Source: Heterotrichella gracilis
Lineage: Eukaryota > Sar > Xanthophyceae > Tribonematales > Xanthonemataceae
Reading direction: 5' to 3'
Assembly: GCA_032358255.1 (NCBI GenBank)
Contig: JAULBX010022188.1
Location: forward strand, 1-64,000
Length of the DNA stretch: 64,000 bases
The notes under the pieces are model-generated. The model was not told the origin of the DNA. It saw nothing but the letters and a program-made list of their open reading frames with translations, and ran no database searches. Of this stretch, positions 911 through 63,996 are shown one piece after another. The first letter of the stretch is position 1. Every line of letters begins with the position of its first letter. Made by a program: the position numbers and the translations under genes.

Positions 911-3008
911 CCATACGTGCATGGAATGTGCGCTTGTCTTTTGCAACCCCCGAGGGGACTAACGAGGTGAGCGGTGGGGATCGCATCCACAGACTACCTA
1001 CACCCTAACAAAACCCTAGCACCGCCAATGCCCTAGCAAATGAGTTAGGTTGGGAATGGAGTGCCACCACAGCCGCACCCTAGGCTAGGGTTGCACACGG
1101 CCCAAGGCATGGAGCTGCCTTAGGGTTTACGCTTTACCAGAAGACATCAGGAATGCGTGTGCTCTCCCCTGGGCAGTCACCTCCCCTTAGCCTGTTTGTG
1201 CTCTGCATGTCAACCAACCAGAGCACATGACCCTGAACCCTAAACAGGTAAATATAGGGCTGGGTGTTGTGTGCACTGATGACTGCTCATGCTGTATTGC
1301 ACTAAACCCAGCCTACCCAGGGCCTCGAGGGCGCCACCCAAAATTCTGCCTATTCTAGCTCCTCAAGGCCGCAACCCTAAACCCTAATCCCTGTCCACCC
1401 CAGGTTCTCAAGGGCGCAACCCTAGACGTGGCGCGTGGAACCCTACACGTGCTGGTGGGGCCCAACGGGTGCGGCAAATCGACCCTACTTAGGGCTTTGG
1501 GGGGCCTGCTGGAGCCCTCCCGCGGCCAGGTGCACACGGAGAAACCCTACGGGTTTGTGTTCCAAAACCCCGACAACCAGGTGGTGCTGCCCACTGTGGC
1601 CGCTGATGTGGCGTTTGGGCTGGGCAGGTATGGCAAAACCGCTTGGAACACGTCATGCAATGGCAATGGTGAATGGGGCGCTGCTCTATGCAAACCCATA
1701 CCCACAGTACAGAACGCCACAGTCTAGAATAGCCTACTCCCTCTCTGCCTCACCACAAGTCCGGCCCCATGATTTACATTTCAGATGCTGCAGGGCAAGT
1801 CTGGGGTGGCGCAGGCCGTGCTGCTGATCTGGTCATACAGCAGTGGTGCATAAACGGAAACGAAATCCGTCCACCCTGCTTCCCCACCATTCCCATTTCC
1901 ACTCCCCACCCCTCCAGGTACAACCTTGCGCCCCCCCTGGTGGAGTCTGCTGTGCGCCACGCGCTGCAGCTTGTGAGCATGGGGGAGTATTATGATCGAC
2001 CCGTGAACAGCCTATCAGGGGGGCAGAAGCAGCGGGTGGCAATCGCGGGCGTGCTGGCGCAGAATTGCAGGGTGGGTGCGCATGCGGCATTTAGGGCCCT
2101 TCTGAGGGAGGGTGCAGAACTGCAGGGTGGTGCGCACGTGGCATTTAGGGCCCTTCTGAGGGAGGGTGCAGAATTGCAGGGTGGGTGCGCATGCGGCATT
2201 TAGGGCCCTTCTGAGGGTGGGTGCATTTCGCAGGTAGATACAAATGTAGAGCTAGGCGTGGAGGGACATGTGGACATTTGTCCTGGGTTGGTTGCACCAT
2301 GTTGATATCCTTTGAAGCCTGGGCGTGCGTCGTACATGTTAGGGTTTCCGTCCTAAACTCTCATTACCCTTGCTTGGGTTTTGCTGCTTGACGAGCTGAC
2401 CACCTTCCTAAGGGTTTCCTGCTTACGCCCTCATTACCCTTGCTTAGGTTTTGCTGCTTGACGAGCTGACTACCTTCCTTGACGAGGAGGACCAGGTGGC
2501 GGTGCTGGAGGTGGTGAGGGAGCTGGTTAGCGGGGGGGGGAGGGACATCACGGCGCTTTGGGTCACGCATAGGTGAGGGGCGGGGTGGGGTGGGTGGTGG
2601 GAGGGGGTATTCCCTTGGCATGGATGGGGCCAGGGAACTGTTCCTGGTGTGTATATTTATTCCTGGTGCTGTGGGTCACATACAGGTGGGATTCAGCATG
2701 CACAAAACCTATCACACTGCCACCACGCGGGGGACTGCCCAGGAACAATCGGCAACTGAATGAGCCAGTCGCGTGGAAATTGACACCCCCACCCACCGTC
2801 ACTGTCCCCAGGATATGATACCCAAGTTCAGGATTTAGGGTTTAGAGTTTAGGGTTCACACACCTCCACACCCGCCCTTCCCACCCGCAGGCTAGAGGAG
2901 CTCCGATGGGCTGACCGCGTGAGCTACATGGACCAAGGGGTGATAATGGAGAGCGGGACACCGCAGGAGATGACGGCGTACATGCGGCGCCTGGGAGCAA
3001 AGGTGTGA
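911..3008 (+). CDS. ABCI10: ABCI10-like plastid ABC transporter ATPase (5' end uncertain)
   Basis: Exons are 911-966, 1404-1627, 1918-2071, 2448-2572 and 2891-3008 (TGA). The order is a short strand ending SFATPEGTNE, Walker A GPNGCGKST, Q-loop FQNPDNQ, signature LSGGQKQR, Walker B LLLDE with the plant-type continuation LTTFLDE, H-loop WVTHR, and a short C terminus ending LGAKV. The FQNPDNQVV and LDELTTFLDE segments are characteristic of plant/algal ABCI10, a chloroplast ATPase related to the ATPases of bacterial energy-coupling-factor (CbiO-like) importers. All splice phases match. The transit peptide was not found with certainty; 346-388 is a candidate first exon. The edges of exons 2, 3, 4 and 5 all have partial copies in the adjacent non-coding DNA. 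The family call is firm; the transported substrate is unknown. Confidence 0.88.
1321..1422 (+). repeat. Three copies of the exon-2 5' edge with telomere-like filler
   Basis: The exon-2 start (1404, CTCAAGGGCGCAACCCT) has two diverged relatives upstream at about 1321 and 1361. Telomere-like DNA (CTAAACCCTAATCCCTG, about 1377-1393) separates the second copy from the true acceptor at 1402-1403. Confidence 0.6.
2059..2222 (+). repeat. Three ~54-bp tandem repeats spanning the exon-3 donor
   Basis: The unit starts GCAGAATTGCAGGGTGGGTG and recurs at 2059, 2114 and 2168. The first copy holds the last codons of exon 3 and its donor (2071|gt). The other two lie in the intron and keep donor-like GGTGG sequence. 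Confidence 0.9.
2341..2480 (+). repeat. 70-bp tandem duplication spanning the exon-4 acceptor
   Basis: Bases 2341-2410 and 2411-2480 are near-identical 70-bp copies, each starting AGGGTTTCC and containing the polypyrimidine tract plus the first Walker B codons. The upstream copy has CTTGGG where the downstream copy has the acceptor CTTAGG, so only the downstream one keeps AG and can open the exon at 2448. Confidence 0.93.
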
Positions 3009-3345
3009 GGTGATGGCGTACTGGGAGCGCCTGGGCGTAACTATGTGAGATGATGGCATATGTGGCGCTTGGCCGGAAAGGTGGGATATTACGCCAAACT
3101 GGGTGCGGTGTTTGGGAGCAAAGGTGTGAGGTGATGGCGCACTGGGAGCCTTCGGGGGCAAGAATTGTGAGATGATGGCATACATGCGGCGCTTAGGGCA
3201 AAGGTGTGATATGATGGCATACTGGGGGCCCCCAGGGGCAAAGGTATGAGATGATGGCATACTGACCCCCCCCCGGGGATCAAATGTGAGATGGTGGCGT
3301 ACATGAGGTGCTGGGGCGCAAAGGCGATTGGGGGCAAAGGTGTGA
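2996..3345 (+). repeat. Degenerate array copying the last ~50 bp of the ABCI10 CDS
   Basis: After the stop at 3006-3008, variants of GCAAAGGTGTGAGGTGATGG followed by a GCGTAC-like stretch recur several times with a spacing of roughly 50-70 bp. This is a minisatellite seeded by the end of the coding exon, including its stop codon. Confidence 0.8.
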
Positions 3346-63500: not shown

Positions 63501-63996
63501 TCTTGGATGACCTGACGTCATAACAACCACGATCACAATTGCAATTTACATTTACACTTACAATTTATATTATATATACAATCATAATGAAGTTGCTACA
63601 GATTTTGCATGCGAAAGCAAGAGTACAGCGCCCTTCGTACTGGTAATTGGTTGACGCGTCCATTTGGCAACTCATGCGAAACTCTAAACCCTCCCCGCCC
63701 AAGTCCACACCTTACGCATGACCAGAAGCACCTTGTACAGAAGAAAAATCCTAAACCCGTTCCCCCAGGTTCTCCCCAACGCAGTTCCGCACCTTGCGCA
63801 TGACCGGCAGCACCTCCTTGGCCCTTGCCTCCTGCAGAATGAGCGCGTGGCTGAGGTTGTTGATGTCCTCAGAGGTGCAGGCAAAATGGGTGAACTCCAG
63901 CACAGCCGCCAGCTCGGGGTTTGCTGCAAACTTGGCCTTGAGCACGTACTCGATCGCCTTCACGTCGTGGTTGGTGGTGCGCTCCACCGCTTTCAC
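60591..63996 (-). CDS. PURB: Adenylosuccinate lyase (N-terminal part outside the window)
   Basis: Six C-terminal exons: 63996-63793, 63511-63368, 63008-62782, 62358-62274, 61657-61377, 60804-60591. They sum to 1155 nt (384 aa plus stop), all phases consistent; the acceptor at 63997-63998 shows further exons to the right. The enzyme splits adenylosuccinate and SAICAR to release fumarate in purine synthesis. Evidence: [42 protein letters not shown] (catalytic His region), the fumarase/ASL signature [14 protein letters not shown] and [17 protein letters not shown]. Similarity is to the bacterial PurB-like subfamily. The exon 61657-61377 has duplicated edges on both sides, some with intact splice sites and reading frames. 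Confidence 0.95.
61172..61262 (-). repeat. Copy of the adenylosuccinate lyase exon 3' edge with intact donor
   Basis: Reads (E)[20 protein letters not shown] and on to TVMR before an intact CAG|GTGCGG donor, paralleling the true exon end at 61377. Six codons differ silently and two adjacent codons (LD versus QF) change residues. Confidence 0.9.
61566..62060 (-). repeat. Three tandem copies of an adenylosuccinate lyase exon start
   Basis: The exon beginning at 61657 ([20 protein letters not shown]) has upstream copies at 61860-61765 (same peptide start, continuing to LLISRW) and 62059-61980 ([20 protein letters not shown]). Each copy is preceded by an intact CCCGCAG or TGCGCAG-like acceptor. 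Copies are spaced about 200 bp apart. Confidence 0.95.
62330..62450 (-). repeat. Copy of another adenylosuccinate lyase exon 5' edge
   Basis: The exon start at 62358 (coding GGACGTGTGGGGCTACATCT) has a copy at about 62449-62407 (GGACGTGTGGGGCTTCAGCT) preceded by an intact CCAG acceptor, offset 91 bp. Confidence 0.92.

Follow-up and report, generated by a model that had tools for sequence, protein, structure and literature searches.

Direct duplications of exon edges, often with telomeric filler, in introns of the alga Heterotrichella gracilis

The stretch of DNA considered here, hereafter the window, comprises 64,000 bp of one contig of the xanthophyte alga Heterotrichella gracilis (positions 1 to 64,000 of the forward strand of JAULBX010022188.1, assembly GCA_032358255.1), and our subject is the copies of exon ends that lie within the adjoining introns of its genes. 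These genes include ABCI10, STAR1, STAR2, FdC2, GT61, eIF3a and adenylosuccinate lyase (ADSL), and Pfam domains agree with the names given to them around the junctions cited in an earlier, sequence-only reading of the window: ABC_tran (ABCI10, STAR1), UPF0014 (STAR2), Glyco_transf_61, Fer2, eIF3a and Lyase_1/ASL_C. Near-repeats, defined as direct pairs with an offset of 15-1000 bp and a score of at least 18, numbered 99 in the window compared with 0, 0 and 0 in three Markov shuffles of it. All nine repeat sets listed by that reading are present as direct repeats with 81-100% identity, and its count of more than twenty affected junctions is borne out on predicted gene models, which yielded 23 exon-intron events plus the pair at 31745/31871, called two exons by the gene finder (the events at 2983 and 44509 are doubtful). 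Several copies per junction, likewise reported, were found as two further copies at 2056, 40545 and 52068 and as a three-copy array at 61560. The features are as follows.

1336-1427, plus strand: ABCI10 acceptor edge and a weak intronic copy (offset 45, 72% identity), the weakest of the set.
2056-2225, plus strand: ABCI10 donor edge and two more head-to-tail intronic copies with a period of ~55 (2056-2116/2165-2225, 61 bp, 97%; middle copy from 2129).
2341-2479, plus strand: ABCI10 acceptor-edge duplication (2341-2409/2411-2479, 88%; offset 70), with homology across the whole unit.
20056-20272, minus strand: GT61 gene donor edge and intronic copy (offset 137).
31745-31919, plus strand: STAR1 donor edge and intronic copy (31745-31793/31871-31919, 96%; offset 126), with two synonymous differences by eye.
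32799-32983, plus strand: STAR1 acceptor edge and intronic copy (32799-32870/32912-32983, 81%; offset 113), with five synonymous and no nonsynonymous differences; the copy lacks the AG.
33904-34055, plus strand: STAR1 acceptor edge and intronic copy (33904-33936/34023-34055, 33/33 identical; offset 119).
34941-35101, plus strand: STAR2 acceptor edge and intronic copy (offset 104).
35143-35319, plus strand: STAR2 donor edge and intronic copy (35143-35209/35253-35319, 91%; offset 110), the GT of the copy being destroyed.
35935-36063, plus strand: STAR2 acceptor edge and intronic copy (offset 103).
39065-39205, minus strand: FdC2 edge and intronic copy (offset 104), partly low-complexity.
39361-39506, minus strand: FdC2 acceptor edge and intronic copy (offset 108).
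39823-40085, minus strand: FdC2 duplication (offset ~211-215), with uncertain exon limits.
40545-40791, minus strand: FdC2 donor edge and two more intronic copies (40545/40660/40730, 81-85%); CCCTAAA-like DNA adjoins the copies.
51620-51774, minus strand: eIF3a acceptor edge and intronic copy (offset 114).
52068-52280, minus strand: eIF3a acceptor edge and two more intronic copies (52090/52188/52254, 83-96%).
52503-52611, minus strand: eIF3a acceptor edge and intronic copy (offset 59), with ~3 telomere-like units directly ahead of the copy.
54701-54977, minus strand: eIF3a donor-side edge and further partial copies (offsets 73-236).
61169-61464, minus strand: ADSL donor edge and intronic copy (offset 206).
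61560-62062, minus strand: ADSL array of three acceptor-edge copies with a period of ~204, AG and an open frame being present in all.
62323-62455, minus strand: ADSL edge and intronic copy (62323-62365/62413-62455, 91%; offset 90).
63693-63815, minus strand: ADSL gene donor edge and intronic copy (offset 82).
16067-16091, plus strand: longest perfect telomeric tract in the window (CCCTAAA, ~3.6 units).

For a wider view of the assembly (68.5 Mb in 903 contigs as surveyed), 29 extra 10-kb stretches were sampled. One of these (L003) was merged with the window and two (L004 and L020) were dropped, leaving 334 kb made up of the window with L003 joined and 26 other 10-kb stretches. The dropped stretches, from contigs C1 (894 kb) and C100, have a GC content of 35-37% compared with ~55% elsewhere and lack near repeats; both contigs probably belong to an associated bacterium. 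In the 334 kb, 59 genes comprising 590 exons and 553 introns were predicted by a gene finder that was self-trained and splice-aware. All counts are approximate, the gene models being predictions without RNA support in which a copy is sometimes called an exon (31865-31909) and neighbours are sometimes fused, as happened to the STAR1-like ABC ATPase and STAR2-like UPF0014 membrane protein genes that adjoin on one strand at 31619-37434.

The pattern of the window recurs in the sample of 26 other stretches. The 445 direct pairs in the sample resolve into 190 events, including 108 at junctions, 38 intron-intron, 38 exon-exon and 6 intergenic. Exon-intron matches with at least 15 exon bases, that is, direct repeats of exon-terminal bases inside an intron, number 118, and exon-edge duplications overlap 95 of 529 predicted introns, or about one in six (95 events after further filters). 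Inverted pairs are rare, with 27 compared to 445 direct and, in the junction class, 5 compared to 197, all 5 in one array (in the search for inverted repeats, only the best arm pair at each centre was retained). Both 5' and 3' edges are affected, as the sequence-only reading held, with 40 donor and 38 acceptor edges among the 78 of 118 events that have a usable junction. Its description of the duplications as tandem fits their direct orientation but not their spacing: junction events are mostly separated by a gap (median ~60 bp; 21% of 108 adjacent) rather than head-to-tail, compared with 55% adjacent among the 38 intron-intron events. Offsets of the 118 exon-intron events have modes at ~100-130 bp (30 events) and ~180-210 bp (32 events), the latter near the nucleosome repeat length, with 14 events between, and unit sizes peak at ~105 and ~195 bp. 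Derivation from one event per gene was rejected, gene-wise clustering of offset or identity not being significant (p = 0.07, 0.33; 103 events in 30 genes).

As a set, the copies decay neutrally. Mismatches across the 118 exon-intron events number 187, 177 and 290 at codon positions 1, 2 and 3 and comprise 265 synonymous (S) and 383 nonsynonymous (N) differences, an S fraction of 0.41 compared to ~0.44 expected if the intronic copy evolves freely and the exon opposite is constrained (summed from a computed 0.296). Only 30 of the 118 offsets are divisible by three (the classes, at 30, 35 and 53, are somewhat uneven) versus 106 of 126 for exon-exon pairs. Identities form a graded series (quartiles 0.80, 0.85 and 0.90). 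The AG or GT, earlier described as destroyed in some copies and intact in others, is in fact kept by the majority: 35 of 40 donor copies (29.0 expected) and 31 of 38 acceptor copies (28.6 expected). With retention at or above expectation, we saw no selection against latent splice sites. These figures might instead be read as marking working alternative exon edges under selection, as might the STAR1 copy at 32799 (5 S : 0 N) and, above all, the ADSL array at 61560-62062, which keeps both AG and frame and is an outlier at 24 S : 3 N (p = 1.6e-6 versus 0.44). Given the overall S fraction and the indifference of offsets to frame, however, such a function is extremely unlikely, and in the ADSL array itself the frame of copies 2 and 3 runs on into intron sequence. 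Coding constraint was thus rejected for the set, with the ADSL array excepted; a paralogue as the source of the array copies was rejected too, as no other copy of the gene was found in the assembly.

Much of the pattern could come from replication slippage or unequal exchange acting everywhere, with no break repair or telomerase and with any missing homology put down to fast intron decay. Small-offset intron-intron events agree with what this predicts, and the intron part of the unit is homologous in 33 of 92 units at z > 3 (36 at z ≥ 5 with slightly wider limits). In the 36 units clearly homologous through the intron part, substitutions amount to 24.1% there compared to 13.4% in the exon part, a ratio of 1.79 where we estimate 1.54 for free evolution; the intron parts are also rich in indels, although gap rates are not comparable because exon parts were found ungapped. 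When decay was simulated with introns evolving 1.79-fold faster and rich in indels, the second intron part stayed homologous in 29 of 29 young units (exon part at least 90% identical) and in 40 of 44 units with 80-90% identity, compared to 14 of 29 and 11 of 44 observed; below 80% there was no contrast (6 of 19 observed, 5 of 19 simulated). Slippage throughout is therefore unlikely, and the association of duplications with telomeric tracts described below counts against it as well.

Judged by sequence comparison, about half of the young units (15 of 29 without detectable homology) seem to carry unrelated filler, and they resemble repair-mediated duplication in being closely linked duplications with filler. 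The STAR1 unit at 33904-34055 is a case in point, the remainder having no recognisable homology and its 86-bp filler being single in the genome. A mobile family or introner-like element was rejected as the source: two fillers searched genome-wide were both unique. Matches to other sampled loci were found for 10 of 90 fillers, and 41 of the 44 matches consist of at least 30% telomere motif. The interpretation given by the sequence-only reading is supported in part, its neutral process standing on the whole. Copies are unconstrained as a set, exon-intron events ignore frame and edges are symmetric, but plain, uniform tandem duplication does not fit, because half of the young units lack a homologous second intron part and introns are several-fold denser in duplications and telomere motifs than predicted intergenic DNA.

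By the position of its arrays, TTTAGGG is the telomere repeat of this genome. Arrays of six CCCTAAA units were located on 16 contigs, 7 of which have them in the first 140 bases and in chromosome-end orientation; at least 1 of the 16, that on C120 (104,654 bases), is internal. A search of the assembly found neither five-unit TTTTAGGG-type nor six-unit TTAGGG-type arrays. TTTAGGG/CCCTAAA occurs at 3.39 per kb in fillers, 1.38 in introns, 0.22 in predicted intergenic DNA, 0.17 in shuffled introns and 0.02 in exons. The units in question are the organism's own telomere repeat, as in telomeric insertion at breaks. Intronic tracts of at least 12 bp were flanked by a direct duplication in 51 of 175 cases versus 88 of 1421 control positions that matched them in intron length and in distance to the junction (odds ratio 6.2; an earlier draw gave 101 of 1412). 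The association persisted without five of the six densest loci (24 of 114 versus 57 of 945; odds ratio 4.2) and stood at 5 of 34 versus 9 of 263 in the window alone. Seven other motifs, available in small numbers, gave odds ratios of 0-2.9, none significant. At the gene level, telomere density was correlated with the fraction of duplicated introns (Spearman's ρ = 0.65; 43 genes with at least four introns). Motif coverage reached 21% at 10-20 bp from a duplication boundary compared to 4.8% over all introns, and the duplicated share was higher with a tract than without one among introns of 40-200 bp (0.24 versus 0.16), 200-300 bp (0.32 versus 0.09) and 400-700 bp (0.44 versus 0.26).

On balance, the copies are probably scars of break repair with direct duplication and frequent telomeric filler, a process that makes introns grow. 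We infer a break, for which long staggered ends are the simplest form, that would be filled in and rejoined. This would leave a stretch of ~50-200 bp present as two direct copies, in many cases separated by filler. Telomere repeats would frequently be part of that filler, as if telomerase had acted on the broken end. An event of this kind inside an exon would usually be harmful. Where it lay within an intron or spanned a single junction, the extra copy would presumably still be removed through the original splice site and would survive and decay neutrally, each event typically lengthening the intron by ~105 or ~195 bp. Units and typical introns are of about the same length, so most of the duplications that are tolerated must cross a junction, and this would give the survivors their exon-edge look. 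Intron growth and a supply of latent splice sites had already been named as consequences; the copies do keep splice dinucleotides and are not visibly purged, and growth would follow as part of the explanation preferred here. A bolder claim, that telomerase-assisted repair of staggered breaks in transcribed genes is a main engine of intron growth in this lineage, typically adding ~105 or ~195 bp per event, carrying in exon edges and splice signals and leaving telomere repeats as a countable, datable fingerprint, is offered tentatively and is more doubtful than probable.

Several observations weigh against the break-repair reading. The gene models are self-trained and lack RNA verification. Duplicated units that contain the telomere motif multiply it, inflating the gene-level correlation; motif coverage right at the boundary (0-10 bp) is lower, at 12%; the presence of a tract did not matter in 300-400-bp introns (0.21 versus 0.23); and telomeric tracts could be the cause of breakage instead of a product of repair. 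The synonymous excess of the ADSL array belongs here too, as do the lean of young events without recognisable intron homology towards synonymous differences (26 S : 19 N; 18 events) and, taken up below, the shortage of intron-intron events at longer offsets and the scarcity of repeats and telomere motif in intergenic DNA. The synonymous lean would suit an assembly artefact in which two diverged haplotypes or homeologues were stitched together, leaving exon edges repeated beside diverged introns. ADSL copies differ mostly synonymously, and similarity often ends just past the splice site (median 9 bp of intron and 33 bp of exon; 31 events), both of which would be in line with stitching. Yet mismatches overall have no synonymous bias, identities are graded, up to three copies stand at one site, and the assembly holds no second copy of the ABCI10, eIF3a, STAR1 and ADSL stretches save partial matches of 40 bp and 38 bp, so that an artefact of this kind is very unlikely.

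A preference for exon edges suggested by event numbers (108 junction versus 38 intron-intron) was mostly removed by base-pair densities and geometry. Per possible base pair, densities at offsets of 100-200 were 2.7e-4 and 2.6e-4 for exon-intron and 2.6e-4 for intron-intron alignments; the two kinds are about equally dense at offsets of 15-300 bp, and exon-intron alignments are sparser beyond 300 bp. With unit length set equal to the offset and introns of the observed lengths, geometry predicted 15.4, 11.1, 19.8, 3.9 and 5.9 intron-intron events by unit size, compared to 12, 7, 6, 2 and 3 observed. At offsets of at least 90 bp, 11 were seen versus 29.6 predicted (45.6 if equally detectable), and a 2-3-fold junction excess was left over above 90 bp. 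Spaced chains also favoured exon-intron (98) over intron-intron pairs (33), with about equal numbers of possible base pairs. A filler-only model, in which the unit equals the matched length, was rejected as the sole explanation, as it predicts far too many intron-intron events (its value at offsets of at least 175 is a numerical artefact of short matches). The data do not amount to clear targeting of exon edges, and there may be a modest preference.

Near repeats cover 7.7% of introns versus 1.1% of predicted intergenic DNA, which a gene-blind process would not give, and the intergenic share was the higher one in 0 of 27 pieces (at printed precision). This contrast is biased by the gene finder calling exon-like copies genic, but the telomere motif gives the same one (1.40 per kb in introns versus 0.22 in predicted intergenic DNA). 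Either the process may be linked to transcribed genes or inserts may be removed elsewhere. The richness of introns, the residual junction excess and the spaced chains would all be expected of a process specific to exon edges, such as breakage coupled to transcription or splicing a little way into introns, as would the peak of telomere motif ~10-45 bp from splice junctions (529 introns). We nevertheless regard such a process as quite improbable: density per possible base pair is about equal up to 300 bp, donor and acceptor edges are symmetric, and the acceptor-side CCCTAAA peak is strand-biased and may be a branch-point signal. Most copies probably represent neutral debris, not the product of a system aimed at exon edges. 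In the 529 predicted introns, sense-orientation CCCTAAA is overrepresented ~10-50 bp upstream of acceptors; the reverse orientation is not, and the motif may serve as branch-point context.

The earlier statement that no named process describes the pattern was too strong, as staggered-break repeats in Daphnia, repair-mediated duplication in primates and telomeric insertion in mammals are all in print, while a literature search of titles and abstract openings found no description of exon-edge copies with telomeric filler in an alga. New introns of Daphnia pulex bear direct repeats of adjacent exon ends, 4-12 bp long, together with internal repeats, read as staggered breaks; passive intron growth was proposed, and 100 of 617 established introns have internal repeats (PMC4202315). 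The likeness lies in direct repeats of exon-terminal bases and in the share of introns with repeats (95 of 529 here). Unlike those of Daphnia, the repeats described here are mostly 20-100 bp long, occur in introns not known to be new and are accompanied by telomeric filler; the string 'telomer' does not occur in the main text of the Daphnia paper (PMC4202315).

Repair-mediated duplication in primates is local, with filler of 1-68 nt, and 295 of 824 acceptors lie in introns; 4 donors were partial exon/intron, and two duplicated exons that were tested had no coding constraint (PMC2671141). The density of these 824 events in the human genome is not directly comparable with ours because the method is limited to inserts of at least 50 bp and relies on repeats (PMC2671141). 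An inverted exon copy was reported there, whereas inverted copies are nearly absent here; the insertion in either orientation allowed by repair-mediated duplication through synthesis-dependent strand annealing (SDSA) is not what the 197 direct and 5 inverted junction pairs display. In rodents and primates, telomere units were inserted at repaired breaks, sometimes with flank duplication, which was found by empty-site comparison at 6 of 130 rodent and 4 of 25 primate loci (PMC2246262). Flank duplication is a minority in those lineages, compared with 51 of 175 intronic tracts here as judged by similarity alone. As in intron gain by tandem duplication, coding sequence and a splice signal are duplicated and one copy is intronic; in that process, however, the new intron equals the duplication in size, whereas the copies read by eye here lie within longer introns. 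Direct repeats of 4-30 bp at or near intron borders have been read as insertion marks (PMC11782384), and they share with ours a position near splice sites, although in that study the two borders of one intron were compared. On these sequence features, the present case appears to join traits of the Daphnia, primate and telomeric-insertion systems, being direct, long, dense, intronic and provided with telomeric filler, and we would assign it to none of them singly.

The source of intron sequence is an open question that has usually been approached through rare events. With a datable duplication in about one in six predicted introns, many of them telomere-marked, rate, unit size, survival and decay become measurable in one genome. 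By extrapolation from the 334-kb sample, spare splice sites with no visible purging would number in the thousands in this genome.

Two further features of the window stand apart from the exon-edge copies. At 45070-46264 a 404-bp unit is directly repeated about three times, with some of the sequence resembling N-T-G-N-rich coding sequence, and two similar kinase-like reading frames at 7034-8752 and 14736-17850 have the look of tandem paralogues.

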